Assembly: GCF_015565955.1 (NCBI RefSeq)
Contig: NZ_CP064760.1
Coordinates: 2,542,001-2,606,000 of the forward strand
Origin: Microbacterium schleiferi
GTDB lineage: Bacteria > Actinomycetota > Actinomycetes > Actinomycetales > Microbacteriaceae
Reading direction: 5' to 3'
DNA: 64,000 nucleotides
Below the pieces are notes generated by a model. That model did no database searches and was not told the DNA's origin. It worked only from the letters and a program-made list of their open reading frames with translations. The translations under genes were made by a program, and so were the position numbers. Position 1 is the stretch's first letter. Each line of letters opens with the position of its first letter. Shown piece by piece: positions 3,420 to 60,141 of this stretch.

Positions 3420-4813
3420 ATGCCACGCCGGCGCCGCCTACCGAATCCGTTCGGCCGATTGCTGCGCGCCCCCTCTGACCCGCATCCGGGCACCGAGGCG
3501 CTGCCGATCGTCGACGACGCGACCGCCGTGCGCATCCTCGACCTTGCCGTGCGCCTGGGCGAGACGATGCTGGTCACGGGAGCCCCGGCATCCGAAGTGA
3601 CCTTCGCAATCGTGCGCGCAGCCGAAGCGTTCGGGCTCCACCCCGTGCACATCGACGTCACCTACAACTCGATCACGGCGGCCTACCACCGCAGCGGCGA
3701 AGATCGACCGATCACCCTGCTGCGCGTCGTGCGAGCTGCAGCCCCCGACTACGAGAAGTTGCTGCGCCTGCAGGCCCTGTTGAGCGAGATCACGGCCGGA
3801 CTTCCGCTGACGGACGCCCGCGCCCGCCTCACCGAGATCAGACGCACGCCCTTCTCTCATCGACCGATCGTCGTCATCGCGGCGCAGGGCCTGCTCGCCG
3901 TCGGCGTCGCCGTCATGTTCGGCGGCAACCCCGTCGTGACGGTGCTCGCGTTCTTCGCCGCCGCCCTGGCCGCGCTCACGCAACTCGGCCTCTCTCGGGC
4001 GCGCGTGCCGTTCTTTTTCAGTCAGATCACCGCCGCGGCAGTCCTCACCCTGTTCGCCTCACTCGCCCCCGCCCTCGCGGCAACCGGGCTGCCGGGGGCC
4101 GCCGAGGCACGCCCCTCGGTCGTCGTCGCCTCGGCGATCGTCCTGATGCTCGCGGGGCTCACCGTCGTCGGCGCCGCCCAGGACGCGATCGACGGGTTCG
4201 CACTGACGGCCTCTGGACGCATCCTCGAGCTGATGACCCAGACCCTCGGCGTTGTCATCGGCATTCTGGTGGGACTCCAGGTCGCGAGCCTCGTGGGCCT
4301 CGCCGTCGATCCCCCAGCGAGGCCCTCCCCCTGGGCGCCGTCCCGCTGCAGTTCCTGGGAGCGGCACTGATCGCTGTCTCGGTCGCGGTCATCAACGGCT
4401 CGGGGATGCGGATCATCCTTGTCAGTGCGGCGCTGAGCGTGGCGGCGTGGACGGCCTACCTTCTCGCCACGCTCATCGGTCTGGACACCGCGGCAGCGAG
4501 CGGCGTCGGGGCCCTCGCGGGCAGCTTCATCGGAATCCTGCTGGCCTACCGGCTGCACGTGCCGTCGGTCGCCGTGACCGCGGCGGCCATCCTGCCGATG
4601 GTCCCCGGCGCCATGGTCTTCCGCGGCCTGCTCACGCTCGTGCAGTCGGGTGAGGACCCGGCTCACATGCTCATCGGCTTCGGAACTCTCGTGAACGCAG
4701 GGGTGATCGGTGTGGCCCTCGCCGTTGGCGCGTCACTGGGTATCTATCTCGGCCAACCGGTGCGGGCGACGCTCACCAGCGTCATGAACGCTCGCGCACG
4801 CTTCCGCCTCTGA
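3420..4813 (+). CDS. Threonine/serine exporter family protein (ThrE), frameshifted as read
   Basis: Membrane exporter of the ThrE family (DUF1212 N-terminal part plus ThrE_2 C-terminal part), which in C. glutamicum exports threonine and serine. The first frame (from ATG 3420, GGGAG 9 nt upstream) runs to 4370 and ends in an aberrant tail after VGLAVDP. The C-terminal membrane half continues in another frame to the TGA at 4811-4813. One extra C in the C5 run at 4311-4315 joins them as [19 protein letters not shown], giving 464 residues, the normal family size. The residue order shows a soluble N-terminal part and about ten hydrophobic helices. It is divergent from lysC by 158 bp, so it probably exports products of that pathway. 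The break is probably a sequencing error. Confidence 0.85.
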
Positions 4814-4842
4814 CTGCTCCCGTGCACGGCGCCGCCCCGGGC

Positions 4843-7627: not shown

Positions 7628-10170
7628 TCACGACATCGGGTCAGCGGCCTGCGGCAGCTGCTCGGGCACGTTCTCCGAGGCCTCAGGGGAACCCACGATC
7701 GGGATCGAGGTGGTGACAACCGGCACGGATGCCGACAGCAGCGACCCGTCGTCACGAGTGACGTCCGCGAACTGGCGAATCGAGGGACGTCCGGGAATCA
7801 CGGGGCCCTGATCGGCAAGCGGGATCATGAGCTCCTGCTCGGGGTCCACGACGTACCGAGCACCGCGCACGGCGAACTCGACGGCCTCGCCCGGGCCTGC
7901 GGCAACCCACATCCGATCCCGGCCAATCGTGACCTGGAGCCGGGTGCCCTTCCAGTGGAGAGTGAACGACAGCTCCGGCCAGTCGACGGGCAACCGCGGA
8001 TCGAACGTCAGCTCACCGAAATGGTCACGCATTCCGCCGAACCCGCTGACCAACGCCGTCCAGACACCACCGGCCGAGGCGACGTGAACGCCGTCCGAGG
8101 CGTTATGGTGCAGGTCGCCGAGGTCAACGTAGATCGACTCGAGGAAGTACTTCAGCGCGAGATCCTGGTAGCCGACCTCTGCGGCAAGGATCGACTGCAC
8201 GACGGCTGACAGCGTGGAGTCACCCGTCGTCAGCGGATCGTAGTACTCGAAGTCGGCGAGCTTCTCTTCGGTCGTGAAGTGATTGCCCTGCAGAAACAGC
8301 GCCAGCACGACATCCGCTTGCTTGAGCACCTGGTAGCGGTAGATCACGAGCGGGTGGAAGTGCAGCAGCAGTGGCCGCTGATCGGACGAGGTGTTCTCGA
8401 GGTCCCAGACTTCCTTCTCGAGGAAGACAGCATCCTGCGGATGGATGCCGAACGCATCGCTGAACGGGATGTTCATCGCCTCGGCAGCGGCCTCCCAGTC
8501 TTCGACCTCGTGCTCCCCAGACCGAGGCGATCCACCATGAGGCGGTACTCCTCCGGAGCGTCCAGGGCCATGTCCCGGAGGGTGTGAGCGGCAAAGCGCA
8601 GGTTGAACCGCGCCATGACGTTCGTGAAGAGGTTGTCGTTGACAACCGTGGTGTACTCGTCGGGGCCGGTGACCCCGTGGATGTGGAACGAACGCTCCGA
8701 GTCCACCTCGTTCTCACGCCAGAACCCGAGGCTCGCCCACATCCGGGCGGTCTCGACGGCGATGTCGACCCCCTCGCGGTAGAGGAACTCGGTGTCTCCG
8801 GAGGAGCGCACATACTTCGCCAGCGCAAAGCTCACGTCGGCATTGATGTGGTACTGCGCGGTACCGGCGGCGTAGTAGGCCGAGGCCTCTTCGCCGTTGA
8901 TCGTGCGCCACGGGAACAGCACCCCGGCCTCGTTGAGCTGCCGAGCCCTCCGTCGCGCCGCCGGAAGCATGAGGTACCGCATCCGCAGCGCGTTTCGCGC
9001 CCACTGCGGGGTTGTGTACGCGAGGAAGGGCAGGACGTAGATCTCGGTGTCCCAGAAGTAGTGACCTGAGTACCCCGATCCCGATACACCTTTGGCGGGA
9101 ACCCCGAGTCCGTCAGCGCGCGCGGCGGCCTGTGCCAGCTGGAACAGACACCAGTGCGTCGCCTGCTGCAGGTCTTCGTGCCCGCCGATGCGGACGTCCG
9201 AACGCTCCCAGAACGCATCGAGCCACTCACGCTGCCGCACGAAGAACGTATCGACACCCTCGGCTCGAGCCCGGTCGAGGGTCCGCCGACAACGGTCCAC
9301 GAGCTCGCGCGACGGAACGCCTCGCGAGGTGTGGTAGCTCACGAGCTTGGTGACCGTGACCGGCTTACCCGCTTTGGCCCGGACGCGGAACACGTTCTTG
9401 GCGATGTCGGGCTCGATGAGGGTGCGCGGGTCGTACTCGTTGTCGGTGTCGATGATGTGATCGGCCACGACCGCGATCGTCATCTCGGACGAGGTCGCCT
9501 TGTACGCGAGCGCGGACCGCATACCGTCCTGCCAGTACTCCTGAGGTTGCAGGACACGTTCGTTGATCCGCTCCGCGCGGCGCGGGTCGAACCCCGCCTT
9601 CTTGGGGGCCACCGGCGTGCCGCCGTAGACGTCTTCGCCATCTTGCCGGTTGATGATCTGGCAGCTGATCGTGACGGGAGCGTCGGAGTTGAGCACCGTG
9701 ACGGTCTGCCGCAGGATCGCGAGGTGCTTCTCTTCGAACGAGACGAGGCGCTCATCCTCGACGAGGACCTCCTTGCCCGACGGGGTGACCCAGTGGATGC
9801 GGCGACGCATGACGCCGTCGCGCATGTCGAGCACGCGCTCGTACTCGCGCACGTCGGCGATATCGAGCGAGAGCGGCTCGTCGTCGACGTAGACCCGCAT
9901 GATCTTGGCATCCGGGGCGTTGATGATGGTCTGGCCGACCTCGGCGAAGCCGAACGCCTGCTCGGCATGCCGAATCGGGAAGACCTCGTGGAAGCCGTTG
10001 ATGAAGGTGCCGTGCTCGTGCGCGTGCCGGCCTTCGGGATTGTTGCCACGCAGTCCGAGATAGCCGTTGCCGACGGCGAAGAGCGTCTCGGAGACACCGA
10101 CCTCGTCGTGCGAATAGCTCGTCTCGACAAGCCGCCACGGGTCGACGGGATAGCGGTCGCGATCGATCAC
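7628..10170 (-). CDS. Glycoside hydrolase family 65 protein (disaccharide phosphorylase type), frameshifted as read
   Basis: GH65 enzymes mostly phosphorolyse alpha-linked disaccharides (maltose, trehalose, kojibiose) to beta-glucose-1-phosphate and glucose. The motif GVTGPDEYTTVVNDN contains the general acid E505 (codon 8656-8658). The first frame runs from the GTG at 10170 to 8473 and the second to 7628. One extra base in the C4 run at 8515-8518 (G on the coding strand) joins them as LGLGEHEVEDWEAAAEA, giving 847 residues, a normal GH65 size. The GTG overlaps the stop of the beta-phosphoglucomutase gene (GTGA), matching the M. tuberculosis Rv3400-Rv3401 pair. The substrate is not determinable. 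The break is probably a sequencing error. Confidence 0.88.
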
Positions 10171-10952
10171 GCGGACTCCTCCTTTTCGGGCGCGGGAGCA
10201 GCGGTACGGATGCCGGCACCATCGCCGGCCAGGAACTCGTCGAGGTCAGCGACGACGACGTGCGCGCCTGCGTCTCGGAGAACCTCAGCCCCGACGCCGC
10301 GGTCGACGCCGACGACGAGGGCGAAGCCTCCCGCCGCCGCCGAACGCACTCCCGACAGGGCGTCTTCGACTGCCGCACTGGATGCAGGCTCGACGCCGAG
10401 CATCGCGGCGGCCTCGACGAACACGTCGGGGGCCGGTTTGGATGCCAGCCCGTCGCGCTCGGCGATGACGCCGTCCATGATCACCTCGAAACGGTCGATG
10501 ATCCCCGCGGCGGTGAGGACCTCCCGCGCGTTCTTGGAACTGGAGACCACGGCGATCCGGGTCCCGGCATCCCGCAGCACGTCAAGCAGTGCGAGCGAAC
10601 CCGGATAGGGCGCGATGCCTTCGCTGCGCAGCACGCTCTCGAAGACTGCGTTCTTGCGGTTGCCAATGCCGCACACGGTATCGAGCTCCGGCGCGTCAGT
10701 GGGCTCGCCCCAGGGAACCTCGACGTCGCGGCTCCACAGCAGGCTCGCGACGCCGTCGTAGCGCTTCTTGCCGTCGAGGTGCTCGAAGTAGTCGCGCTCG
10801 GTATATGCGGGCGTGATGTCCCACGCCGCGAAGAGCTTCTCGAACATCACCTGCCACGCGTGCATGTGCACTTCGGCGGTCGGGGTCAGCACCCCGTCCA
10901 GATCGAAGAGCACCGCATCGAAGGCGGTGAGATCGGGAAGAGCGTCGGCCAC
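10167..10952 (-). CDS. pgmB: Beta-phosphoglucomutase family HAD hydrolase
   Basis: Converts beta-glucose-1-phosphate to glucose-6-phosphate, the step that follows GH65 phosphorolysis. 261 residues of the HAD-IA fold. The nucleophile/acid pair is D17 and D19 in LFDLDGVLTPTAEVH, with motif II VVSSSKN, the KP lysine in LASKPAPD, and VEDALSGV as motif IV. The start is the GTG at 10952, with AGGAGG 6 nt upstream. Its stop overlaps the start of the GH65 gene, so the two are translationally coupled. Cap-domain residues alone do not exclude a general sugar-phosphate phosphatase; the partnership with GH65 makes the mutase role likely. Confidence 0.85.
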   Translation of the reverse strand: MADALPDLTAFDAVLFDLDGVLTPTAEVHMHAWQVMFEKLFAAWDITPAYTERDYFEHLDGKKRYDGVASLLWSRDVEVPWGEPTDAPELDTVCGIGNRKNAVFESVLRSEGIAPYPGSLALLDVLRDAGTRIAVVSSSKNAREVLTAAGIIDRFEVIMDGVIAERDGLASKPAPDVFVEAAAMLGVEPASSAAVEDALSGVRSAAAGGFALVVGVDRGVGAEVLRDAGAHVVVADLDEFLAGDGAGIRTAAPAPEKEESA

Positions 10953-11080
10953 AGGAAACCTCCTGGCGGGTGGGGGTGTCACAAGCGTTTGCACGAAGCG
11001 AGCGCGCAGGGTCGGGTACGGCTGACGCCGTGGTGCAAGCGTAGTAGTTCGGCCGTGCCCCAACGCTGGTTTGCGAGCGC

Positions 11081-12313
11081 TCAGCGCTGCGCAACGCCGA
11101 GAGTTTGCCGGGCGATCTCGAGTTCTTCATTCGTCGGCACCACGAGCACCGTCACGTCCGACGCATCGGTCGAGATGCGACGGATGCCACGTTCGCGCCG
11201 CTCATTGCGCTCGGGATCGATCTCGACCCCCGCAAAGCCGAGGGTCTCGAGGGCTGCCGCGCGAATCACGGGCGAATTCTCGCCGACACCGGCGGTGAAG
11301 GAGATGACGTCCACGCCGCCGAGCTGCGCGAGGTATGCCCCGGCATAGGTGCGCAGCCGGTGAATGTAGACATCGAACGCAAGCGTTGCCGCCTCATCGC
11401 CATCCTCGCGGCGCTGTTCGATGTCGCGCATATCGGAGGCTCCCGCGAGACCCAGCATTCCCGAGCGCTTGTTGAGCAGATCATCAAGATCGTCGATCGA
11501 GAGCCCCGCGCGCCGCGCGAGCTGAAACACGATGGCCGGGTCGACATCACCCGAACGGGTGCCCATGACAAGGCCCTCGAGGGGCGTGAGTCCCATGGAC
11601 GTGTCCACGGACCGACCACCCTCGATCGCCGCGGCGGAGGCGCCGTTTCCGAGGTGGAACACGATCTGTTTGAGCTCACCGAGCGGACGGCCCACGAAGG
11701 CGGCTGCCGCTTCGCTGACGAACTTGTGCGAGGTGCCGTGGAATCCGTACCGGCGCAGGCGGTGCTGTTCTGCAAGTTCCCTATCGATCGCGTAGGTGTA
11801 AGCAGCGGGGGCCAGCGTTTGGTGGAACGCGGTGTCGAAGACGGCAACGTGCGGAATCGTCTCGAACGCTTCCTGTGCGGCGCGGATGCCCTGCACGGCC
11901 CCCGGGTTGTGCAGGGGCGCGAGAAGCGACAGGTCCTCGATGTTGATGAGTACGAGCGGGGTGACCAGCGTCGGCTCGAAGAACCTCGCGCCACCGTGCA
12001 CGACACGGTGCCCCACGGCCACCGGCGGGTTGTTCTGCAGGGAAGGACCGTGTGCGGCGAAGGCGTCGAGCATCACCTGGAACCCGGCAGTGTGATCGGG
12101 AATCGGCAGGTCCCGCTCGGAGGTCGCGCTCACGAACGTCGGGGCGGGCTCATCCGGGGAGAACTCCGCTGCGGTGACGGTGTGACGAGAGTGGCCGCCC
12201 TCCTGGCCGATCCGTTCCACCAGACCCGACGCAAGCACCGCCTCATTGTCCATGTCGATCAACTGGTACTTGAACGACGAAGAGCCGCTGTTCACGACGA
12301 GGACAACGCTCAT
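11081..12313 (-). CDS. ackA: Acetate kinase
   Basis: Interconverts acetyl phosphate plus ADP and acetate plus ATP. 410 residues of the acetate/propionate kinase (ASKHA) family. Signature 1 VVNSGSSSFKYQL lies at 6-18. GFHGTSHKFVS carries the catalytic-region histidine, and FHLGNGAS and TAGVGENSP bind phosphate and nucleotide. The ATG at 12313 overlaps the pta stop (ATGA), so pta-ackA is one operon and together forms acetate with ATP gain or activates acetate. Confidence 0.97.
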   Translation of the reverse strand: MSVVLVVNSGSSSFKYQLIDMDNEAVLASGLVERIGQEGGHSRHTVTAAEFSPDEPAPTFVSATSERDLPIPDHTAGFQVMLDAFAAHGPSLQNNPPVAVGHRVVHGGARFFEPTLVTPLVLINIEDLSLLAPLHNPGAVQGIRAAQEAFETIPHVAVFDTAFHQTLAPAAYTYAIDRELAEQHRLRRYGFHGTSHKFVSEAAAAFVGRPLGELKQIVFHLGNGASAAAIEGGRSVDTSMGLTPLEGLVMGTRSGDVDPAIVFQLARRAGLSIDDLDDLLNKRSGMLGLAGASDMRDIEQRREDGDEAATLAFDVYIHRLRTYAGAYLAQLGGVDVISFTAGVGENSPVIRAAALETLGFAGVEIDPERNERRERGIRRISTDASDVTVLVVPTNEELEIARQTLGVAQR

Positions 12314-14493
12314 GCGGTGGTCCCTTCCTGTTCGCTGGATGCCGGAGCTGCGAGGTCCGCGTCAGCCTGGGCCTGAATCGCGGTGATCGCGATGGTGTTG
12401 ACGATGTCGTCGACGAGCGCGCCGCGCGACAGGTCGTTGATGGGCTTGTTGAGCCCCTGCAACACCGGCCCGATCGCGACGGCGCCCGCCGAGCGTTGCA
12501 CTGCCTTGTAGGTGTTGTTGCCGGTGTTGAGGTCGGGAAAGACGAACACTGTTGCTCGCCCGGCGACGCGCGAACCGGGCATCTTCGCCGCGGCAACTGC
12601 CGCATCCGCTGCAGCGTCGTACTGGATGGGGCCTTCCACGAGCAGTTCAGGCGCCCGGTCGCGAACGAACGCCGTGGCAGCGCGCACCTTCTCGACATCC
12701 GCCCCCGAGCCCGACTCCCCGGTGGAGTACGACAGCATCGCGACACGGGGGTCGATGCCGAACTGGGCAGCAGTCGCTGCGGAAGAGACGGCGATGTCGG
12801 CGAGTTGCTCGGCTGTCGGATCGGGGATCACGGCGCAGTCGCCGTAGACGAGCACCCGGTCGGCGAGCGCCATAAGGAACACGCTCGAAACGACAGAGAC
12901 CCCCGGCTTGGTCTTGATGATCTCGAACGCCGGACGGATGGTGTGCGCTGTCGTGTGAGCTGCGCCCGAGACCATGCCGTCAGCCAACCCGAGGTGGACC
13001 ATCAGGGTTCCGAAGTACGACACGTCCGTGACCGTGTCGGCTGCCTGATCGAGTGAGATCCCCTTGTGGGCCCGCAGGCGCGCGTATTCCTGCGCGAACT
13101 GCTCGACGTAGGTGGGATCGAAGGGGCTGATGATCTGCGCGGCTGACACGTCGACGCCGAGCTCGGCAGCTCGGGTGCGGATCTCACCCTCGTCGCCGAG
13201 GATCACGAGGTCGGCGATGCCGCGAGCCAGAACTGTCGCGGCGGCCCGGATGACGCGATCGTCGCTGCCCTCGGGAAGCACGATCCGCCGCCGATCCGAG
13301 CGCGAGCGCTCCACCAGCTGGTACTCGAACATCAGCGGGGTGACGACCGTCGAGCGGGCGAGACCGAGAGACCTGCTCAGCATCGCGGTATCGACGTACT
13401 GCTCGAACATCGCCAGCGCGGTGTCGTAGCGCCGCTGGGATGCCGCAGCGAAGCGCCCCCGTGTGTTGATCACTTTAACGGCGGTCTCGAAGGTGCCCTC
13501 GTCGGTCGCGATGATCGGCAGGTTGGAGGCAACGCCGTCCATGAGCCTGTCGATCTGCTCGGGCAGCGGGAACGGTCCGTTGAGCAGGATGCCCGAAATT
13601 GACGGGAACGTGCCCGAGGTGTGAGCGAGCAGCGTCGCCAAGAGAACCTCGGTGCGGTCGGCGGGGATCATCACGATGGCGCTCTCGCTCAGCCGCGGCA
13701 AGACGTTGACCATCGACATCCCCGCGATCACGACACCCAAGACCTCGCGCGAGAGGAGTTCCTCATCGCCCTTGATCAGCGTGCCGTCGATCGCCGCCAT
13801 GACCTCGCGCATCGTGGGGGCCACGAGGAACGTGTCTTCGGGAATGGCCCACACCGGGACGACCCCGTCGGACGTCACATGCTCGGGCTCACGCGCGTGG
13901 TCGATGACCCCGCGCACCGCCGCGGTGACGTCGTCGACGCGCTCCGGTTCGGCGCGATTGACGATCACCGCCAGCAGCCCTGCCCGCCCGTGCGCGAGCT
14001 CCGCCAGCGCGAGCGCGGTGATCTGCCCGATTTCCTCGGGGGTGCGCGCGGGCGAGGATCCGAGCTTCTCCGCCTCGCCGGATCGCCCGCTCATCACGAG
14101 CAGGACGGGCGCGCCGAGGTTCGCCGCGATCCGGGCGTTGTACCCGAGCTCTGCGGGAGAGCCGACATCCGTGTAGTCGCTTCCAATGATCACGACGGCA
14201 TCGCACTGCGCTTCGACGGCCTTGTACCGCTCCACGATCGTGCCGAGGGCCGCGTCGGGATCCGCACGCACCTCGTCGTAGGTCACCCCGATGCAGTCCT
14301 CGTACGGGAGGTCGACACCATCGTGCGCGAGAAGCATCTCGAGGACGTAGTCGGGTTCGACCGTCGAGCGGGCGATCGCTCGGAAGACACCAACGCGCGG
14401 TGTGGCGTGGCTCAGTGCATCGAGCACGCCGAGAGCGATGGTGGACTTGCCGGAGTGACCTTCTGCTGAGGTGATGAAGATGCTCTGCGCCAC
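12310..14493 (-). CDS. pta: Phosphate acetyltransferase
   Basis: Transfers acetyl between CoA and phosphate. 727 residues, the long form. A P-loop-like N-terminal domain (SAEGHSGKSTIALG), a DRTGG-type middle domain, and the C-terminal PTA catalytic domain from about residue 390 (RRRIVLPEGSDDRVIRAA; YSTGESGSGADVEKV; FPDLNTGNNTYKAVQR). The start is the GTG at 14493 with no Shine-Dalgarno. TAGGCT ends 6 nt upstream, so the mRNA is probably leaderless. The upstream neighbour on the same strand is the SRP RNA gene. It is translationally coupled to ackA. Confidence 0.96.
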   Translation of the reverse strand: MAQSIFITSAEGHSGKSTIALGVLDALSHATPRVGVFRAIARSTVEPDYVLEMLLAHDGVDLPYEDCIGVTYDEVRADPDAALGTIVERYKAVEAQCDAVVIIGSDYTDVGSPAELGYNARIAANLGAPVLLVMSGRSGEAEKLGSSPARTPEEIGQITALALAELAHGRAGLLAVIVNRAEPERVDDVTAAVRGVIDHAREPEHVTSDGVVPVWAIPEDTFLVAPTMREVMAAIDGTLIKGDEELLSREVLGVVIAGMSMVNVLPRLSESAIVMIPADRTEVLLATLLAHTSGTFPSISGILLNGPFPLPEQIDRLMDGVASNLPIIATDEGTFETAVKVINTRGRFAAASQRRYDTALAMFEQYVDTAMLSRSLGLARSTVVTPLMFEYQLVERSRSDRRRIVLPEGSDDRVIRAAATVLARGIADLVILGDEGEIRTRAAELGVDVSAAQIISPFDPTYVEQFAQEYARLRAHKGISLDQAADTVTDVSYFGTLMVHLGLADGMVSGAAHTTAHTIRPAFEIIKTKPGVSVVSSVFLMALADRVLVYGDCAVIPDPTAEQLADIAVSSAATAAQFGIDPRVAMLSYSTGESGSGADVEKVRAATAFVRDRAPELLVEGPIQYDAAADAAVAAAKMPGSRVAGRATVFVFPDLNTGNNTYKAVQRSAGAVAIGPVLQGLNKPINDLSRGALVDDIVNTIAITAIQAQADADLAAPASSEQEGTTA

Positions 14494-14499
14494 GACTTC

Positions 14500-14505
14500 A
14501 GCCTA
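14500..14505 (-). promoter_or_regulatory. -10 box of leaderless pta promoter
   Basis: TAGGCT on the minus strand, then 6 nt, then the GTG start of pta. It has the same geometry as the dnaX promoter and places the transcription start at the G of GTG. Confidence 0.55.
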
Positions 14506-14601
14506 GGCGCGTCCGCCGGGACCCCGCAGGGCACATCCCGGGGAAAACCCGTGGGCCCGGGGATGGTCGTGCCGCCGTCTCGCTGCGGTCGCGTGGGCAT
14601 G

Positions 14602-14699: not shown

Positions 14700-14838
14700 A
14701 GTCTACCCATTCGCCCGGCGGGGATTCGCGGCTTCCTCCCAGAGCCGCACCCACTCGGCCAAGGTTACGATTGTGCAACGACCGACGATGCGCCGTGTAT
14801 CCGACGAGGCGGCGCGCGCACAGGCGGAGGGGGTCGGC

Positions 14839-49691: not shown

Positions 49692-49776
49692 TCACGGCCT
49701 CAACTTTCACCCCGACTGATGGGGCCGAGAGTAGCGTGACCACCAGTAGACAACCTCGATGTGGGGGGAAATGATC

Positions 49777-51219
49777 ATGGATCTGCTCGATCCGCTGCTG
49801 CTAGCCCGTTGGCAGTTCGGCCTCACGACGCTGTACCACTTCCTGTTCGTGCCACTGACGCTCGGCATGTCGGTCACCGTCGCCATCTTCCAGACCGTCT
49901 GGTATCGCACCGGCGATGTGAAGTGGCTGCACCTGACGCGGTTCTTCGGGAAGATCTTCCTGATCAACTTCGCGATGGGCGTGGTCACCGGCATCGTGCA
50001 GGAGTTCCAGTTCGGTATGAACTGGTCGTCCTACTCGCGGTTCGTCGGCGACGTCTTCGGAGCACCCCTCGCCTTCGAAGGGCTCATGGCCTTCTTCTTC
50101 GAAGCGACCTTCATCGGCCTCTGGATCTTCGGCTGGGACAAGCTCCCGAAGGGGTTGCATCTGGCATCCATCTGGATCGCCTCGATCGGCGCGCTCCTGT
50201 CGGCCTACATCATCATCGCGGCCAACGCGTTCATGCAGAACCCGGTCGGCTACCAGATGGCCGAAGACGGCAGTCGCGCCGAGATGAACGACTTCCTTGC
50301 GGTGGTAACGAACCCGATCGCCTTGGCGGCGTTCCCACATACGATCTTCGCGGCCTTCATGTTCTCGTCGGGCGTCGTGATCGCGGCAGCAGCCTGGCAC
50401 ATGGCTCGCAAGCGCAACATCGAGATGATGCGCCCCGCCCTGAAGTTCGGTCTGTGGGGCATGATCATCGCGTTCGCCGGCACGTTCCTCGCCGGTGACC
50501 AGCTGGGTCTGGTGATGGTCAGCACCCAGCCGATGAAGATGGCTGCCGCGGAGGCGCTCTACAACTCGGCGTGCGGTGCTAACGCGTCCTTCTCGATTTT
50601 CTCGATCGGAACGCCCGACGGCACGGGCGAGATCTGGTCGATCCGCGTCCCCTATCTCCTGTCGCTGCTGTCGACCCATACTCTCGACGGATGCGTCGAA
50701 GGCATCAACGACCTCAACGCGCAGTATGCAGCGCAGTGGCCGGACCTTGCCGCGCAGGTCGACGGCGTCTTCAACCCGGTGCTGTGGATCACCTACTGGT
50801 CCTTCCGCTGGATGATGGGCCTGGGCTTCCTCGCGACCTTCATTGCGATCGTCGGCCTGTGGCTGACCCGCAAGAACGCCAAGCGCGATGTGCCCCGGTG
50901 GGCCTGGAGCGTCGCGATCTGGACCGCACCGATCGCGCTGGTGGCCTCGCTCGTGGGCTGGGTGTTCACCGAGATGGGGCGTCAGCCGTGGATCGTGTTC
51001 AGCCTCATGCTGACCGAGGATGGCGTCTCACCGAGCGTCCCCGGCTGGTCGGTGCTGATCTCGCTGGTCGCCTTCACCGCGATCTACGCCTCCCTCGCGG
51101 TCGTTGAGTTCGGCCTCATCCTCAAGACCGTGCACAAGGGGCCAGACCCACTCCCCGAGCCCGGCAGCACGGATGCCGAGCCGACCTCCCGCGAAGACAC
51201 CCCGACGACGGTCTACTAG
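49777..51219 (+). CDS. cydA: Cytochrome bd ubiquinol/menaquinol oxidase subunit I
   Basis: Haem-carrying subunit of the high-affinity terminal oxidase that reduces O2 to water with quinol. 480 residues and nine helices, with the short Q-loop form typical of Gram-positives. It opens MDLLDPLLLARWQFG; H21 in TLYHFLF matches the N-terminal haem b595 ligand region. GRQPWIVF lies near the C-terminus. The ATG at 49777 is chosen over 49771 because GGGGGGAA lies 6 nt upstream. cydB follows after 12 nt. The assembly exporter cydDC lies 3 kb downstream, beyond mod genes. Confidence 0.97.
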   Translation: MDLLDPLLLARWQFGLTTLYHFLFVPLTLGMSVTVAIFQTVWYRTGDVKWLHLTRFFGKIFLINFAMGVVTGIVQEFQFGMNWSSYSRFVGDVFGAPLAFEGLMAFFFEATFIGLWIFGWDKLPKGLHLASIWIASIGALLSAYIIIAANAFMQNPVGYQMAEDGSRAEMNDFLAVVTNPIALAAFPHTIFAAFMFSSGVVIAAAAWHMARKRNIEMMRPALKFGLWGMIIAFAGTFLAGDQLGLVMVSTQPMKMAAAEALYNSACGANASFSIFSIGTPDGTGEIWSIRVPYLLSLLSTHTLDGCVEGINDLNAQYAAQWPDLAAQVDGVFNPVLWITYWSFRWMMGLGFLATFIAIVGLWLTRKNAKRDVPRWAWSVAIWTAPIALVASLVGWVFTEMGRQPWIVFSLMLTEDGVSPSVPGWSVLISLVAFTAIYASLAVVEFGLILKTVHKGPDPLPEPGSTDAEPTSREDTPTTVY

Positions 51220-51231
51220 GAGCTGATCATC

Positions 51232-52263
51232 ATGGATCTCGCATACCTCTGGTTCTGGATCGTCGGAGTCCTGTTCGTCGGCTACTTCGTTCTCGACGGC
51301 TTCGACTTCGGCGTGGGAATGTCGCTGCCCTTCCTCGGCAAGGATGAGGTCGGCAAGCGTCAGATCATCAACACGATCGGTCCCGTCTGGGACTTCAACG
51401 AGACATGGCTGATCGTCGCCGGCGCGTGCCTGTTCGCTGCCTACCCCGAGTGGTACGCCTCGCTGTTCAGCGGCTTCTACCTCGCGCTGCTGCTGATCCT
51501 GCTCGCCCTCATCCTGCGCGGCGTTTCGTTCGAGTACCGCCACCAGCGCGAGGGTCTGCGCTGGAAGAAGGGCTTCGACACGATGATCGTCATCGGGTCG
51601 GTGCTCCCCGCGCTGCTGTGGGGCGTGGCCGTCGCGAACCTCGTCCAGGGCGTGCCGCTGGATGAGAACCACGAGTACACCGGGTCGCTGCTCACGCTGC
51701 TCAACCCCTACGGGCTGCTCGGCGGAATCACGCTCGTCCTGGTCTTGTTCCTGCACGGCCTGTACTTCATCGGACTCAAGACCGACGGTCAGGTACACGA
51801 GGATGCCAAGCGCCTCGCGACCCGGGTCGGGTTCATCACCGTCGTGGTCGCTGCCGCGTTCCTGATCTGGACGATCTTCATCGCCGCCGCCCACGAGGCT
51901 CCGCTCCTGCCGTTCGTCATCGCGGCAGCAGCTCTCGCGGCCGTCGCCCTCCTGCTGTCGATGTTCTTCCACGTGAAGGAGCGCGAAGGGTGGGCGTTCA
52001 CGGCGGGGATCTTCACCGTCGCTCTCGCGGTGCTGACGCTGTGGATGTCGATGTTCCCGAACGTCATGCGCTCGTCGACGGATGTCGCGTTCAGCCTGAC
52101 GATCGAGAACGCCTCGAGCACCGACTACACCCTCACGATCATGTCGTGGGCAGCGCTCATCTTCCTCCCCCTCGTCCTCGCCTACCAGGGTTGGACCTAC
52201 TGGGTCTTCCGCAAGCGCGTCACCCGGTCACGGATCGAGAAGGCCGAACTCGTCAATCACTGA
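51232..52263 (+). CDS. cydB: Cytochrome bd oxidase subunit II
   Basis: 343 residues, eight or nine helices. The conserved opening is WFWIVGVLFVGYFVLDGFDF, with GPVWDFNETWLI and an acidic residue pattern of the proton path. It forms the membrane heterodimer with CydA. AGGAG lies 9 nt before the ATG. It ends at a strong bidirectional terminator. Confidence 0.97.
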   Translation: MDLAYLWFWIVGVLFVGYFVLDGFDFGVGMSLPFLGKDEVGKRQIINTIGPVWDFNETWLIVAGACLFAAYPEWYASLFSGFYLALLLILLALILRGVSFEYRHQREGLRWKKGFDTMIVIGSVLPALLWGVAVANLVQGVPLDENHEYTGSLLTLLNPYGLLGGITLVLVLFLHGLYFIGLKTDGQVHEDAKRLATRVGFITVVVAAAFLIWTIFIAAAHEAPLLPFVIAAAALAAVALLLSMFFHVKEREGWAFTAGIFTVALAVLTLWMSMFPNVMRSSTDVAFSLTIENASSTDYTLTIMSWAALIFLPLVLAYQGWTYWVFRKRVTRSRIEKAELVNH

Positions 52264-52273
52264 GCGTGTCAGA

Positions 52274-52312
52274 CACGGTACCCGGCGGGCACTGAGCCCG
52301 CCGGGTACCGTG
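52274..52312. terminator. Bidirectional intrinsic terminator between cydB and modC
   Basis: Perfect 17-bp stem (52274-52290 with 52296-52312) and a 5-nt ACTGA loop, followed by TTTAT on the plus strand. The minus strand has only a weaker T tract. It serves both convergent operons. Confidence 0.9.
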
Positions 52313-52313
52313 T

Positions 52314-53084
52314 TTATCCGTCCTCGCTGACCTGCCCGGCGATCCGCACGTGGCCTGCCAGCGCTTCCGCAAACGGCGTGGCCGGGTGGCGCAGCACATC
52401 ACGGACCGCGCCCTGCTGCGCCACCCGCCCCCGTTCGAGGACGAGAAGGCGATCGGCCACGGCGACGGCATCCACGGGGTCGTGAGTGATGACGACGGCG
52501 GTGCTGCGCAGGTGGTCGGCCAGCAGCATCCGGATCTCCGCCGCCGTCTGCAGGTCCAGTGAGGTCAGCGGCTCATCCAGCAACACGAGACGCGGGTCCA
52601 CCGCGAGCGCCCGAGCCAGCGCCACGCGCTGTTGTTGACCGCCGGACAGGTGCGCGGGCATCCGTTCTGCGAACCCGGCCAGCCCGACCCGGTCGAGCCA
52701 CTCCTCGGCGACGCGTTCAGCCTCGAGGCGGGAGGCGCCGCGGGCGCGGGGTCCGAACGCGACATTCTCGCGTGCGCTCAGGTGCGGGAAGAGGCGGGCA
52801 TCCTGGCCGAGAAGCATGACGCCGCGATCCATCGGCGCCACGTGGATGCCTCGTCTCGGACGGATGCCGCCCGCGGGGGCATCCGAGAGAACAGTGCCGT
52901 CGAGCTCGATGCGTCCGGCATCCAGACGGAGGAACCCGGCGAGCGCCGCCAACAGCGTGGACTTGCCCGCACCGCTCGGCCCCATCACCGCAACGCGCTC
53001 GCCGGACGCCAGGTCGAGGTCGATGTCGAGGTCGAAGGTCGCGGAGCGGACAACCCGCATCTGTGCTGACAGTGCCGCCGTCAT
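52314..53084 (-). CDS. modC: Molybdate ABC transporter ATP-binding protein
   Basis: 256 residues. Walker A GPSGAGKST, signature LSGGQQQR, Walker B LVLLDEPLTSLD and ITHDPVD. It is shorter than E. coli ModC because it lacks the C-terminal TOBE/Mop domain. That function may be served by the separate TOBE regulator at the other end of the operon. The ATG at 53084 overlaps the modB stop (ATGA), which fixes the start. Confidence 0.92.
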   Translation of the reverse strand: MTAALSAQMRVVRSATFDLDIDLDLASGERVAVMGPSGAGKSTLLAALAGFLRLDAGRIELDGTVLSDAPAGGIRPRRGIHVAPMDRGVMLLGQDARLFPHLSARENVAFGPRARGASRLEAERVAEEWLDRVGLAGFAERMPAHLSGGQQQRVALARALAVDPRLVLLDEPLTSLDLQTAAEIRMLLADHLRSTAVVITHDPVDAVAVADRLLVLERGRVAQQGAVRDVLRHPATPFAEALAGHVRIAGQVSEDG

Positions 53085-53899
53085 CCGGGAACCCCCCGCC
53101 TCGGTCCCTCGGCGCGCCAGCCACGGACAAGCAGCAAAATAGCCAGCGCGGCGACCAACAGCAGGAGCGAGAGGGCAACGGCAGTTCCTTGCGTGACGCC
53201 GGCTCCGTTGAAGGCGGTGTAGATGGCCAGCGGCATCGTCTGGGTCACTCCCGGTGCGTTGCCCGCGAACAGCGCCGTCGCGCCGAACTCGCCGATCGCG
53301 CGCGCGAAACTCAGCACGACGCCGGCGATCAGCCCCGGGGCTGCGAGCGGGAGCGTCACGCGCCGCAGGATCAGCCAACGCCGGGCGCCGAGCCCCGCAG
53401 CGACCTCTTCGAGATCGGTGCCCGTGGCCCGGAGGGAACCCTCCACGGCAAGAACCAGAAACGGCAGCGCGACGAAGGTCTGGGCCATGACGACCGCTGT
53501 CGTCGTGAACGGCAGCGTGAGCCCGGCTTCGGCGAGCAGACCCCCCGCCCATCCGCGTCGCCCGAACAGAAAGAGCAGCGCCACTCCCCCCACCATCGGG
53601 GGAAGCACCAGCGGCACCGTGACAAGCGCTCGCAGCACGGCAGCGGTCCGTGGCGCCGACCGAGCGATCAGCAGCGCCAGTGGCACACCCAGAAGAACGC
53701 ACAGTCCGGTCGCGGCAAGACCGGTTCCGAGTGACAGCACGAGAGCCTGCACGGCCTGCGGCGAGGAGATGTCGACCCAGAAGGTGTCCCACTGCACTCG
53801 GGCGATCAGCGCCAGCAGCGGTACGACGAGAAACGCCAGTCCGAGCAGCGCCGGAACGAGGAGCGAGCGCGGCAGGAGCGTCCCGGGGCGCGGGCTCAC
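53081..53899 (-). CDS. modB: Molybdate ABC transporter permease
   Basis: 272 residues, five or six helices, with the EAA-type loop EEVAAGLGARRWLILRRVTL. LPPMVGGVALLFLFG is typical of ModB. The GTG at 53899 overlaps the modA stop (GTGA). It forms the channel for molybdate bound by ModA and is driven by ModC. Confidence 0.93.
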   Translation of the reverse strand: MSPRPGTLLPRSLLVPALLGLAFLVVPLLALIARVQWDTFWVDISSPQAVQALVLSLGTGLAATGLCVLLGVPLALLIARSAPRTAAVLRALVTVPLVLPPMVGGVALLFLFGRRGWAGGLLAEAGLTLPFTTTAVVMAQTFVALPFLVLAVEGSLRATGTDLEEVAAGLGARRWLILRRVTLPLAAPGLIAGVVLSFARAIGEFGATALFAGNAPGVTQTMPLAIYTAFNGAGVTQGTAVALSLLLLVAALAILLLVRGWRAEGPRRGVPG

Positions 53900-54702
53900 G
53901 GCGCTCCGAACCCGAAGGATGCGAGCACGTCCTGCCCGTCGGGCCCCCGCACATAGGAGATGAACGCTGCCGCCGCCGCGGGCGTGGTAGCCGAACGCAG
54001 CGCGGCAATGGGGTAGAGGTTGACCACGAGCGCTGCACCCTCGGGCACGATCGATTCGACATCGGCACGGCCCGCGACATCCGTTCGGTACACCAGACCG
54101 GCGTCGGCTTCCCCGGCGGCGACCTTCGTGAGCACGGCCGCGACGTTCTGCTCCAGGCTCGCGGGAGTGACCGCGACGCCCGCGCCCGTGAGGAGCTTCT
54201 GCGACGCGGACCCGCACGGCACCTCCGGCGCACACAGCACGACAGAAAGATCCGGATCGGCGAGGTCCGCGAGACGCGACACCCCCGCAGGGTTGCCGGC
54301 CGGGACGACGATCACAAGCGTGTTGGAGGCGAACAGCTGCGGCGTCTCGGCGAGCCCGGCATCCACCACCGTGGCCATCGTCGATTCGTTCGCAGCCGCG
54401 AAGACGTCCACCGGCGCGCCCTCGATGATCTGCGTGGCCAGGGTCGACGAACCGTCATAGGTGATGGGCCGGACGTCGACGTCGGGGTAGGAGGCCTCGA
54501 AGCCCACGGCGATCTCATCGAAGGCCGCTTTCAGCGACGCAGCGGCGAAGATCGTCACCTCTCCCGATACGGCCGGAGCCGAGGCACCGGTCACCGCTGT
54601 GCTGGGCGAGGCGTCGGTGGCACCGGCTGAGCATCCGGCGAGGGACAGGGCGAGGGCGGATGCGGCGACGAGAACGACGCGGGGCACGGCGGCGCGCATC
54701 AC
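53896..54702 (-). CDS. modA: Molybdate-binding lipoprotein
   Basis: 268 residues. Lipobox LAGC with lipid cysteine C24. The substrate-binding fold opens VTIFAAASLKAAFDEI, with the conserved SS/T pocket in YDGSSTLATQI. A later segment is GLVYRTDVAG. It captures molybdate or tungstate outside the membrane for ModBC. It starts 3 nt after the regulator gene, so the four genes form one operon. Confidence 0.94.
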   Translation of the reverse strand: MMRAAVPRVVLVAASALALSLAGCSAGATDASPSTAVTGASAPAVSGEVTIFAAASLKAAFDEIAVGFEASYPDVDVRPITYDGSSTLATQIIEGAPVDVFAAANESTMATVVDAGLAETPQLFASNTLVIVVPAGNPAGVSRLADLADPDLSVVLCAPEVPCGSASQKLLTGAGVAVTPASLEQNVAAVLTKVAAGEADAGLVYRTDVAGRADVESIVPEGAALVVNLYPIAALRSATTPAAAAAFISYVRGPDGQDVLASFGFGAP

Positions 54703-54705
54703 CGA

Positions 54706-55098
54706 TCAGTCCTTCGGAGCTTCGACGATGACGGTGGTCGCCTTGATGACCGCGGCGGCAAGAGAACCGACCTGCAGGTCCAGGTCGCGCACGGCCTCGG
54801 CCGACATCAGGGAGACAACGCGGTGCGGGCCGGACTGGATGTCGACCTGGGCCATGACGCCGTCGACCTGCACGCGCGTGACCAGACCGACGAAGCGATT
54901 GCGCGCGCTCGAGAGCACGTCAGCGGCGTCTGACCCCTGTTGCGCGCGCTCCACGGCACGCTGGGCGAGCGCGTCGCCGGGTATCTCTGCCGGTGAGGCT
55001 CCGGTCGTCGCGAGCAGGCCGGCCTCGATCCATCGCCGGACGGTGTCGTCACTGACGCCGAGCAGTCGGGCGGCATCCGCAATGCGATAGGTGCGCAT
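54706..55098 (-). CDS. ModE-like regulator: MerR-type helix-turn-helix plus TOBE domain
   Basis: 130 residues. The N-terminal helix-turn-helix RIADAARLLGVSDDTVRRWI (5-24) is of the excisionase/MerR type. One TOBE (Mop) domain covers about 65-128 (ARNRFVGLVTRVQVDGVMAQV), which binds molybdate oligomerically. It probably senses molybdate and controls this operon. TAAAGT (55105-55110, minus strand) ends 6 nt before the ATG, so the mRNA appears leaderless. Confidence 0.88.
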   Translation of the reverse strand: MRTYRIADAARLLGVSDDTVRRWIEAGLLATTGASPAEIPGDALAQRAVERAQQGSDAADVLSSARNRFVGLVTRVQVDGVMAQVDIQSGPHRVVSLMSAEAVRDLDLQVGSLAAAVIKATTVIVEAPKD

Positions 55099-55104
55099 GC
55101 TCGA

Positions 55105-55126
55105 ACTTTAGCATCCGCATATGCGG
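55105..55126 (-). promoter_or_regulatory. mod operon promoter with palindrome
   Basis: A leaderless -10 TAAAGT at 55105-55110 adjoins the perfect 12-bp palindrome CCGCATATGCGG (55115-55126) just upstream, inside the expected -10/-35 spacer. It is a plausible operator for the ModE-like protein encoded next to it. Confidence 0.45.
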
Positions 55127-55269
55127 TCATTATCGATCGTGTGTTCCGCTCAAGCGGATGCGTATCCGCCTTTCCCCCGCTGATGCGTCGAAGTCTGACA
55201 CCCACGGACCGGGACCTTTGGCACGGTTCGCCGGGGCGTCGCCCTGCGGAAATGAGGCAGACTCGATTC

Positions 55270-56934
55270 ATGCCCGCCGAGCAGGATCGACCCGCGCGTC
55301 GGGGACCTGTCGATCCGCGCCTCCTGCGCTACGCGCGGAGCTCCCGCGGCTTCTTCGCTCTCATTGCCGCCGTCGGCCTCGCCCAAACGCTGACCATCAT
55401 CGCGTTCGCCTGGTTCCTCACGACCGGGATCGTCGGCGCAATCGACGGACGATCGCTCAACGAACTCGCCCCGACACTGGCGGCGCTCGGCGCCACCATC
55501 GCCGTTCGAGCTGTGCTGATCTGGGCACGCGAGGCAGCTGCTTCCCGAGCAGCAGCCCGCGTCGAGAGCGAGCTGCGTGAGAACCTCGTGGGCGCCGTCG
55601 GCACGCTCGGCCCGGAGTGGATTTCCACCCGGAACACGGCGCAGCTCGCCGTTACCGCCGGCCGCGGACTGGAAGCGCTGGATGCCTACTTCGGCCGCTA
55701 CCTGCCCCAGCTGGTCCTCACCGCGATCGCGACACCGATCCTCGTGGCGATCATGTGGTGGCAGGACTGGTTGAGCGGCCTCATCGTGCTGCTGACCCTC
55801 CCCCTCATCCCGATCTTCATGGTGCTGATCGGGCTGGCCACCCGCGCCGTGCAGCAGCGGCAGTGGAGAACCCTCGGTCAGCTCGCCGCGCGCTTCAGCG
55901 ACACGGTGCAAGGACTCTCAACACTCAAAGTCTTCGGACGCCAGCACCGCGCCGCCGACTCGATCGAGAGCGTCACGACGCGCTATCGGCGCGAGACCAT
56001 GAAAGTCCTGCGCGTCTCTTTCCTCTCTGGCTTCATGCTCGAGTTCCTCGCCTCGATCGCCGTCGCGATCGTGGCCGTCACGATCGGGTTCCGACTCCTC
56101 GACGGTTCCCTGGCTCTCACGGTGGGTCTGTTCGTTCTGCTCCTCGCGCCCGAGGCCTACCTCCCCCTGCGCCAGGTCGGAGTCCAGTTCCATGCGGCAG
56201 CCGAAGGGGTAGCCGCAACCGAAGACATCTTCGCGGTGCTGGATGCCGCGGCATCCGCTCCGAAGCCTGCAACGCCCACGGCGGTGTCACGAGGGTCCGG
56301 CGCACGGCTTGTTGCCCGCGAGCTCCGCGTGCGGCGCGGGGACAGTGTCCTGCCGCCCGTTTCGTTTGAACTCGAACCGGGCCGGGTCATCCTCCTGGAA
56401 GGACCGAGCGGCGCGGGCAAGTCCAGCATCCTGGCCGCACTGCGCGGCGCTGCCCCCTTCGAGGGGTCGGCGACGATCCACGGCGCAGATGTCCGAGGGA
56501 TCTCATCAGCGAGCTGGCTTGCATGGGCGGGGCAGAGCGCGGGTCTCATCTCGGGCACGGTAGCCGACAACGTTGCGCTGGGAGACGCGAACCCCGACGC
56601 GGCACTGATCGAAGCATCCCTGCGTCTGGCGTGTGCCGATGAGATCACCCCGACTCGCGAACTGGGAACACAGGGGGCGGGACTCTCGGGCGGCCAGGCG
56701 CAGCGCGTCGCGGTGGCGCGCGCGTTCTACCGTCATCTGCGCGGACAGGCCACGGTCATCGCTCTCGACGAACCGAGCGCCGCCCTGGATGCCGAGACCG
56801 AAGCGCGACTGTGGGCGTCAGTGCGAAAGGTCGCCGACGACGGCGCCGGGGTCATCCTGGTCTCCCATCGCGAGAGCGCCCGGCAGATCGCCGACGAGGT
56901 CGTGGCTCTCCGGGCGAGCGAGGTGATGGCATGA
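55270..56934 (+). CDS. cydD: Cysteine/glutathione-type ABC exporter subunit for cytochrome bd assembly
   Basis: Half of the CydDC exporter needed for haem insertion into cytochrome bd. 554 residues. Six-helix ABC transmembrane domain (about 20-310), then the ATPase with GPSGAGKSS, LSGGQAQR, VIALDEPSAALD and SHRES. The ATG at 55270 follows CAGACT by exactly 6 nt, so it may be leaderless; the in-frame ATG at 55252 has no better site. cydC overlaps its stop. Confidence 0.93.
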   Translation: MPAEQDRPARRGPVDPRLLRYARSSRGFFALIAAVGLAQTLTIIAFAWFLTTGIVGAIDGRSLNELAPTLAALGATIAVRAVLIWAREAAASRAAARVESELRENLVGAVGTLGPEWISTRNTAQLAVTAGRGLEALDAYFGRYLPQLVLTAIATPILVAIMWWQDWLSGLIVLLTLPLIPIFMVLIGLATRAVQQRQWRTLGQLAARFSDTVQGLSTLKVFGRQHRAADSIESVTTRYRRETMKVLRVSFLSGFMLEFLASIAVAIVAVTIGFRLLDGSLALTVGLFVLLLAPEAYLPLRQVGVQFHAAAEGVAATEDIFAVLDAAASAPKPATPTAVSRGSGARLVARELRVRRGDSVLPPVSFELEPGRVILLEGPSGAGKSSILAALRGAAPFEGSATIHGADVRGISSASWLAWAGQSAGLISGTVADNVALGDANPDAALIEASLRLACADEITPTRELGTQGAGLSGGQAQRVAVARAFYRHLRGQATVIALDEPSAALDAETEARLWASVRKVADDGAGVILVSHRESARQIADEVVALRASEVMA

Positions 56935-58592
56935 CCACGGCGCGCGAGGTCCTCCGCGGCGCAATGCCGCCGGTGCGCCGGTTCTGGCCGGGCGCGGCAT
57001 CCGCCTTCATCTCCGAGGCATCAGCGGTGGGTCTCCTTGCGACGAGCGCCTGGCTGATCGTACGGTCCAGCGAGATGGTGCCGGTGCTCTATATCTCTGT
57101 CGCCGTCGTGGGCGTGCGCTTCTTCGCGCTGACGCGATCGGTCTTCCGCTATCTCGACCGGCTCGCCGGCCACGATGCTGCCCTGCGCCAGCTCGCCGCC
57201 ACCCGCACCGACATGGTCCGCCGACTCATCCCGCTCGCACCCGACGGACTCACGCGCACCAAGCGCGGATCGGTCCTCGGCGCCCTCGTGGACGACGTCG
57301 ACGACCTCCAGAATCTGCCCCTGCGGGTCGTGCAGCCCCTCGTCGCATCAGCGACCGTGGCCCTGGCCGCCGTGATCCTCGTGACGATCATCTCGTGGCC
57401 CGCGGGGCTGACACTGCTTGCCTCCCTCGTCGTCGCCGCCCTCGTCGCCGTCGGCTGGGGCTGGGCGGCCGGAGCCCGAGCCGAGCGCGCGATCGCGCCA
57501 CTGCGGTCCCGGCTCGCCGATGCCCTCCTCGACCACCTCGGCAGCCTCGACGTCCTCCTGGCCTATGGCGCCGAGGAGGCCAGCAGAACCCGGATCCGCG
57601 AGGCTGACCGGACGCTGCGCCGGGCAGTGGTCCGCAGGGCAGGGGCTCAGGCCGGGGCCGCGGGAATCATCTCCCTGCTCGCCGGGGCCGCCTCGCTCGC
57701 CGCGATCCTCGTCACTGCTCCGTCTGCGGCGGCAGGAACCCTCACGGGCCCCGACCTCGCGGTCGCGGCGCTCGTTCCCATGGCGGTGTTCGAGGTCTTC
57801 GCCGCGATCCCCCTGGCGGCCGCCTCCTGGCGCCAGGTGCACGCCTCGGCCCAGCGCATCGCTGAGGCCCTTCCCGCCGAGCCGCCGGCGGGGATCGTTC
57901 GGGACGAGCCGGCCGCGACCGGGGTCGCCCCGGCGCTCGGCGACGGTATCGTCCTGCGCGATCTGTCCGCCACGTGGCCGCACACTGACAGCGCGGCGCT
58001 GCGGGAGGTCACCCTGGAGATCCGTCCCGGCGAGAGGCTGCTGGTCGTCGGTTCGTCCGGCGCGGGAAAGTCGACCCTCGCGCATGCGCTGGTGCGCTTC
58101 CTCGACAGCGCCGGTGAGTACCGCATCGGGCAGACTGACGCGCACGGCATCGCCTCCGACGACCTGCGCAGAACTGTCGGATTGTGCGAGCAGGACCCCA
58201 TGCTGTTCGACGAGAACATCCGGCAGAACCTGCTGTTCGCGCGCGAGGATGCCACGGATGCCGACCTTGAGGCCGCACTCGAACGCGTTGGCCTGGGACC
58301 GTGGCTGCGTGAACGCGGCGGCCTGGATGCGCGCGTGGGCGAGCGCGGCCAGCTGGTCTCCGGTGGTCAGGCGCAGCGCATCGCCCTCGCTCGCGCCCTG
58401 CTGCATCGGTTCCCCGTGCTCGTCCTCGATGAGCCCACAGCCGGTGTGGATCCCGCGGCATCCGATGCGCTGCTCACCGACCTGCTCTCCGCCGTCGAGC
58501 CGCACCAGTGCGTCGTGCTGATTTCCCACGTCACCGTGCCCGACGGGTTGGTCGACCGCGTCGTGCGCCTCGAACGCGGCGCCCTGGTCTAG
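56931..58592 (+). CDS. cydC: ABC exporter subunit for cytochrome bd assembly
   Basis: 553 residues, partner of CydD. Transmembrane domain with VVGVRFFALTRSVFRYLDRL typical of CydC. The ATPase has GSSGAGKST, CEQDPMLFDENIRQNL, VSGGQAQR and VLVLDEPTAGVD. The ATG overlaps the cydD stop (ATGA). The last 4 nt overlap the convergent oxidoreductase gene. Confidence 0.93.
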   Translation: MTTAREVLRGAMPPVRRFWPGAASAFISEASAVGLLATSAWLIVRSSEMVPVLYISVAVVGVRFFALTRSVFRYLDRLAGHDAALRQLAATRTDMVRRLIPLAPDGLTRTKRGSVLGALVDDVDDLQNLPLRVVQPLVASATVALAAVILVTIISWPAGLTLLASLVVAALVAVGWGWAAGARAERAIAPLRSRLADALLDHLGSLDVLLAYGAEEASRTRIREADRTLRRAVVRRAGAQAGAAGIISLLAGAASLAAILVTAPSAAAGTLTGPDLAVAALVPMAVFEVFAAIPLAAASWRQVHASAQRIAEALPAEPPAGIVRDEPAATGVAPALGDGIVLRDLSATWPHTDSAALREVTLEIRPGERLLVVGSSGAGKSTLAHALVRFLDSAGEYRIGQTDAHGIASDDLRRTVGLCEQDPMLFDENIRQNLLFAREDATDADLEAALERVGLGPWLRERGGLDARVGERGQLVSGGQAQRIALARALLHRFPVLVLDEPTAGVDPAASDALLTDLLSAVEPHQCVVLISHVTVPDGLVDRVVRLERGALV

Positions 58593-60141
58593 GCGGTCGC
58601 GGGTTCCGCGTCGTCTGCGAAGGTCTCGGCGGTCGCGGCGATTCGATTGGCCATTCCGCTGAAGATGAACCCGTGGAAGGGCAGCACCGCGAACCAGTAA
58701 AGGCGTCCGGCCAACCCGTGCGGGAAGAACACGGCCCGCTGCTCGTACCGCGATCCGGTCTCGGTCGGGGTAGCCCGCAACTCGAGCCAGGCAAGACCCG
58801 GCACCTTCATCTCTGCCCGCAGACGCAGGAAGCTGCCATGCTCGATCGCTTCGACGCGCCAGAAGTCGAGTGCGTCCCCGGCCGAGAGCCGGCCCTTGCT
58901 CCGGCGCCCGCGTTGAAGCCCCACGCCACCGACGATCCGGTCCATCCAGCCGCGAACCGCCCACAGCAACGGCGACGAGTACCAGCCGTTCTGGCCGCCG
59001 ATGCCCTCGATGACCCGCCACAGCGCGGATGCCGGAGCGGACGTTGTCGCGGAACGCGCGTCCACGAACACGACCTGCCCTGCCCAGTCCGGGTCGCTCG
59101 GTAATGGACTCGAGGGCACATCGAGAATCTCGGTGTCGGCCCAGCTCGTCTCGACGGTGTCGTCCTTCTCGCGGCTGAGGGCCAGCGCTACCGCATCCCG
59201 ATACCGCATGAGCCCGTCCTCGGGCGGGGAATGAGGTCGTCGACCTCCCATGACCGCACGACACAGTCCACCTGCAGCGACTCGACCAGGGGGCGCGCGA
59301 TCGCTGCCGGGATCGGGGTGACGAGGTTGACCCAGAGCGAGGCGAGGCGCGGCGTGAGCACCGGCAAGGCGGCGATCGCTCGTTGCCGGAGCCCCGCGAC
59401 AACCGCGTACCCGTTCATCATCTGCCCGTACCGCAGCACGTCCGGACCACCGATGTCGACGGCCGTGGTGACCGTCGCCGGCACATGCGCGGCACCGAGC
59501 AGGTAGTGCAGCACGTCGCGCACCGCGATCGGCTGGATCCGGTTCCGCACCCACTTGGGCGCCGGCATGTACGGCAGAACATCGGTGAGGTGCCGCACCA
59601 TCTCGAACGACGCGGAACCCGATCCGATGACGACACCGGCCTGCAGGACGAGGGTCGGCACACCCGAGTCCAGCAGAATGCGCCCGACCTCGACGCGACT
59701 GCGAAGGTGCGGCGACAGCGGGGCGTCATCCGGGTGGAGCCCGCCGAGATACACGATGCGAGCCACGGATGCCTCCGCTGCGGCGTGAGCCACCGTGGTG
59801 GCGACGTCGCGGTCGGTCTGTTCGAAGGCGCGACCGGACATCATCGAGTGGATGAGGTAGTAGAGCACATCGACGTCGCGCACCGCATCCGAGACGGCAT
59901 CCGGGTCCTTCGCGTCGCCGGCGACAACCTCGACACGGTCTCCCCAGGCGAAGGCGGCGACGCGCTCCGGATGCCGGGCGAGGACGCGCACGCGGTATCC
60001 CGCGCTCAGCAACCGCGGCACGAGGCGTCCGCCGAGGTACCCGGTGGCGCCGAGCACGAGCGCTCGCGGCTTCTCGCCGCCCGTACGCGGCTGTGCGACG
60101 AGAGCGGGTTCGCGTCCCGTGGGAGCGGTGAGGTCATCCAC
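58589..60141 (-). CDS. NAD(P)-binding oxidoreductase with DUF2867 domain, frameshifted as read
   Basis: The N-terminal half is an atypical short-chain dehydrogenase/NmrA-like fold (LVLGATGYLGGRLVPRLLSA), and the C-terminal half is DUF2867 (WRVEAIEHGSFLRLRAEMKV). The frame breaks in the G4 run at 59226-59229. One extra base gives DLIPPPEDGLMRYRDAVAL and 517 residues, the size of the full two-domain family. The substrate is unknown. The GTG at 60141 lies exactly 6 nt after TAGCCT (60148-60153), indicating a leaderless start. The break is probably a sequencing error. Confidence 0.83.

Follow-up and report, generated by a model that had tools for sequence, protein, structure and literature searches.

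Eleven genes in the window, the whole 64-kb stretch of DNA that was analysed (G000:C1:2,542,001-2,606,000, within one contig of 3,296,665 bases), were each found to be one base short relative to intact relatives. Judged from the sequence, these breaks are very probably errors of the assembly consensus and not biology. Because the same type of break splits indispensable genes elsewhere in the genome, they are almost certainly losses of sequencing or assembly. The lengths of short G/C runs were very probably under-counted during read calling and merging, the likeliest setting being a long-read assembly that was insufficiently polished (we infer both the technology and the lack of polishing). Single bases would then have been lost at some 12 to 17 positions in every 100 kb, and the organism's own DNA would be intact.

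Protein and DNA matches indicated that the genome (G000) was Microbacterium-like, and the GC content was 0.66-0.70. The window protein encoded at 49759-51219, cytochrome bd subunit I by family, had its best relatives mostly in Microbacterium, with identity of up to 81%, and the DNA identity of its gene to genus mates reached 80%. The completeness of G000 was 95.31%, compared with 99-100% in 15 single-contig genus mates. In the one-genome-per-species set searched, G000 represents its species. The same-genome sample consisted of 20 stretches of 20 kb across G000 (400 kb). The relatives' sample (721 kb) consisted of 5 genus mates, 80 kb each, and 15 Microbacterium loci, together 321,375 bases; 17 loci were labelled Microbacterium, and the short L006 and L008 were excluded. 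The genus-wide profile comparison covered 58 other genus members.

The eleven same-strand frame changes listed by the first-pass annotation, each one base short against intact relatives, were confirmed at 11 of 11 sites (Table 1). Intact open reading frames (ORFs) or proteins of relatives revealed the frame change at 10 of them, and that of the YhgE gene was shown by the position of its start codon. Intact ORFs and proteins crossed the sites, with one relative for GH65, and with the subtilase and YhgE as the weakest cases. Family assignments used the window pieces themselves or unbroken relatives. YhgE and cysteine regulator (here the ArsR/MarR-like regulator) are names taken from the first-pass annotation, with no family match behind them.

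Table 1. Genes of the window that carry a frame change, with the result of the gene-model scan at each site.
Gene	Span	Strand	Frame change	Scan
ThrE-type threonine/serine exporter	3276-4813	+	about 4311-4340	called
GH65 glycoside hydrolase/phosphorylase	7628-10170	-	about 8509-8518	called
AlkZ-like DNA glycosylase	22130-23274	-	about 22450-22471	called
DUF4386 membrane protein	24811-25409	-	about 25029-25041	not called
TDT/SLAC1-family transporter	26168-27310	+	about 27005-27029	called
FtsX-like ABC permease	31588-33464	-	about 32181-32211	called
MMPL-family transporter	33813-36571	+	about 34298-34313	called
Gene called YhgE in the first-pass annotation	36568-38474	+	between start codon and about 36585	not called
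ArsR/MarR-like regulator	46987-47630	+	about 47521-47526, near C terminus	not called
Subtilase-like protein	47684-49557	+	about 48553-48556	called
NAD(P)-binding/DUF2867 oxidoreductase	58589-60141	-	about 59203-59227	not called

The site in the ThrE-type exporter, at about 4313, was crossed in two frames by 11 of 11 fetched relatives, and PF06738 and PF12821 were found on its two pieces. For the MMPL transporter (PF03176), all 11 loci and all 8 proteins, chosen from 120 listed, crossed at about 34311. One of these 8, an unbroken MMPL protein of 918 aa (P0005) from a contig of 13,194 bases, matched the two window pieces at 99.4% and 99.9% identity. The DUF4386 protein (PF14329) also had an unbroken counterpart, P0001, which was 95% and 97% identical on the two sides of the break. 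Three of its four fetched proteins crossed the site and the fourth stopped short of it; no DUF4386 relatives were found among the 58 other genus members. Of 8 TDT proteins chosen from 103, 7 crossed at about 27027, the eighth having only its C-terminal half within the coordinate filter; PF03595 was found on P0127, and the genus search gave one distant match. All 6 relatives of the AlkZ-like protein showed the frame change at about 22455, and PF06224, which bears out this label, was matched on an intact relative, the window's own piece having no family match. The FtsX site (PF02687) was crossed in six rows from four genomes, and the remaining fetched loci gave no row. For the oxidoreductase, the ORFs of relatives formed two clusters of 4 at about 59219, all with the same net change, and PF13460 and PF11066 lay on separate pieces in the window and together on one intact relative. 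The regulator matched HTH_5, and a C-terminal motif that was in frame in 11 of 11 relatives fell in the next frame.

The GH65 site, at about 8515, was covered by a single relative with 80% and 77% identity on either side, and PF03632 was matched on the two pieces at profile positions 3-208 and 229-371. For the subtilase, at about 48554, the 4 loci were all paralogues of genome G007, with 27-31% identity in the C half; both halves were matched in two frames, and PF00082 was found on the second piece. The start codon of YhgE, which overlaps the MMPL stop, and the body of the gene are in different frames; this MMPL overlap is also where two relatives begin, and ABC2_membrane_3 was found on an intact relative. 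It is unlikely that a few of the eleven sites are real frameshifts of the strain amid assembly errors; the best candidates would be YhgE and the subtilase.

Frame changes were also called with a gene model of codon frequencies, in which a frame change in either direction, stop readthrough and gene overlap were each penalised. The window scan, run blind to the list of eleven sites, called missing-base events at 4311, 8516, 22454, 27027, 32194, 34311 and 48554, recovering 7 of the 11 sites and missing DUF4386, YhgE, the regulator and the oxidoreductase. No stop event was called in the window, and an extra-base call at 36557, which joins MMPL to YhgE at their junction, was considered false. The model predicted 59 window genes, some of them tiny, and 36 had at least one relative covering half or more. 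Among these predicted genes, two-frame matches beyond the listed genes were found for cydD only, in 1 of 40 relatives. Other two-frame pairs, for example near 14788, 51132-51269, 53099, 54695 and 56748, mostly with 1-3 relatives each, were judged collectively and set aside as probable antisense ORFs or gene junctions. A few further breaks close to gene ends may escape the two-frame count, because it was blind to the regulator and oxidoreductase breaks, which are split or near an end in the model.

Several other features of the window were observed. Three consecutive long ORFs (437, 406 and 796 aa) at 14551-19395 had no NCBIfam match at E 1e-20, and the first of them (437 aa) overlaps an SRP RNA on the opposite strand (14600-14696). 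A tRNA-Arg (ccg) at 62654-62722 was called by ARAGORN only, without a call from Rfam, and lies within a predicted gene of the opposite strand (61428-62799); the call is perhaps false. The ArsR/MarR-like regulator (46987-47652) lies a few kb upstream of the genes for cytochrome bd subunit I and a CydD-type exporter (49759-58592). The MMPL gene and the gene that follows it (33813-38474) are likewise adjacent in genus members G076 and G078.

The direction of the events differed between G000 and its relatives. At the standard penalty of -11.5, and after removal of events no more than 60 bases from the end of a stretch (which reduced 53, 10 and 0 to 50, 5 and 0), the 400-kb G000 sample contained 50 missing-base events, 5 extra-base events and no stop, compared with 7, 8 and 1 in the 721 kb of relatives. 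The missing-base rate per 100 kb was 12.5 in the G000 sample, 10.9 in the window and 1.0 in the relatives. The extra-base rate was 1.25 in the G000 sample versus 1.1 in the relatives; extra-base events in G000 are background. At the laxest penalty, the missing:extra ratio was 61:11 (with 3 stops) in the G000 sample versus 12:32 in the relatives (Fisher p 6e-10). The contrast fades as the penalty tightens, with p values of 0.0005 at -11.5, 0.005 at the next stricter penalty (44:5 versus 4:5) and 0.035 at the strictest, -18 (37:3 versus 4:3), which speaks against under-calling. With the relatives' codon table, the G000 sample gave 47:6. The 7-11 breaks in the 64-kb window and the sample rate of 12.5 per 100 kb would extrapolate to some 400 to 570 breaks genome-wide, and by this extrapolation the window's eleven would be a local sample of some hundreds.

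True pseudogenes, produced by lineage gene loss through frameshift or by a burst of slippage mutation, would account for breaks that are present in the sequence and for relatives that are intact. This origin is highly improbable, given that conservation persists on both sides of the breaks, that rpoC and EF-G are split, and that in-frame stops were 0 at the standard penalty (3 over the 400 kb when it was laxest). The mixture of insertions, deletions and stops that marks pseudogenes was not seen in the 400-kb G000 sample. The earlier argument that a uniform direction is not typical of decay held, with extra-base events at the background rate only and no stops at the standard penalty.

Broken genes elsewhere in the genome included essential ones. 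The genome sample had 50 broken-gene calls. Families were sought on 40 pieces, which touched 35 of these calls, and several pieces had no family match. In G000, rpoC was present only as three abutting matches, one after another in different frames, at model positions 2-47, 46-434 and 433-1146; its frame changes lie near 384,190 and 385,600 of G000:C1. Among the 58 other genus members, 49 had one full-length rpoC match, 7 had partial matches, which came from assemblies in 30 to 650 contigs, and no match was found in 2. Similarly, EF-G was found in three abutting pieces (5-83, 83-237 and 237-690), with frame changes near 394,245 and 394,722 of G000:C1, compared with one piece (5-690) in 52 of the 58; among the matches listed, the other EF-G matches of G000 covered the N-terminal part only. 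Cells cannot live without RNA polymerase beta-prime or EF-G, so the organism itself does not carry these breaks. Nothing found separates the window's eleven from the rpoC and EF-G breaks. Broken-gene calls also fell on rpoB and cysS, for each of which one piece was identified.

Programmed ribosomal frameshifting could restore the products, and several of the sites are indeed short runs of equal bases. It would be needed in some hundreds of genes, including the three-piece rpoC and EF-G, and intact relatives carry the same genes in a single frame with no shift. No conserved shift site was seen in the orthologues, which are open in one frame, and recoding of this kind is hardly credible as the cause.

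Abutting pieces were also found for PglX of BREX-2 (90-706 and 709-1172) and for a deferrochelatase (6-144 and 144-419). In L114 (G000:C1:1660001-1680000), PglX and PglY of BREX-2 (10482-17318) were both called broken by missing-base events. The same was observed for the mycofactocin genes MftD and MftF (12281-15643) in L105 (G000:C1:220001-240000). Two deferrochelatase/peroxidase genes were found in G000, at 43766-44992 of the window and at 6267-7552 of L110, and the L110 copy is broken by a missing base.

G/C runs were examined at 57 missing-base events, 7 from the window and 50 from the genome sample. A G/C run of at least 3 bases lay within 6 bases of 44 of the 57, compared with 17.4 expected at random positions, and a run of at least 4 was found at 26 of the 57, compared with 4.2 expected (p 1.3e-16). 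The homopolymer setting given in the first-pass annotation was thus borne out as an enrichment near short G/C runs and did not extend to every break, since 13 of the 57 had no G/C run of at least 3 within 6 bases, which counts against under-calling. The G/C run-length spectrum of the whole G000 sample showed no clear difference from that of the relatives. The nearness of the sites to G/C runs would also suit phase-variable tracts sequenced in their off state. With 3 to 5 bases, the runs at the sites are short for phase variation, the change goes in a single direction and essential genes are affected, so that a phase-variable origin has next to no probability.

Systematic under-calling, the reading put forward in the first-pass annotation, is supported by losses in one direction far above the relatives' rate, by a similar rate across the genome with essential genes among those split, by the association with G/C runs and by intact relatives.

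Comparable errors have been described. The parts of the Kastor paper (PMC12007338) that deal with its long-read assembly of Pss508 report that indels made up 69% of errors and were mostly false deletions, which most frequently followed a stretch of four to five identical bases. As in G000, run-linked false deletions of single bases broke genes that are intact in relatives, and the errors were detectable through relatives. Most errors in that account came after A/T runs despite a GC content of 59%, which speaks against under-calling at G/C runs. G000, with 68% GC and with G/C runs examined, differs in this respect, and for Pss508 the reads were at hand. The part of the Homopolish paper (PMC8011154) drawn on here likewise concerns systematic errors that survive polishing and are exposed by homologous sequences; Homopolish treats nanopore errors, whereas G000 was judged from the assembled sequence alone. 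No paper was found that joined a complete nanopore genome of Microbacterium with frameshifted pseudogenes.

The significance of the finding is one of data hygiene and curation only. By extrapolation, some hundreds of G000 genes are probably split wrongly, and a truncated TDT product of 333 aa (P0125), whose contig is as long as that of G000, is already in a protein collection. With PglX and PglY split, defence-system finders may score the BREX-2 system as defective. Claims of gene absence or of pseudogenes from G000, including those on BREX-2 PglX and PglY, are not trustworthy until the genome is polished.
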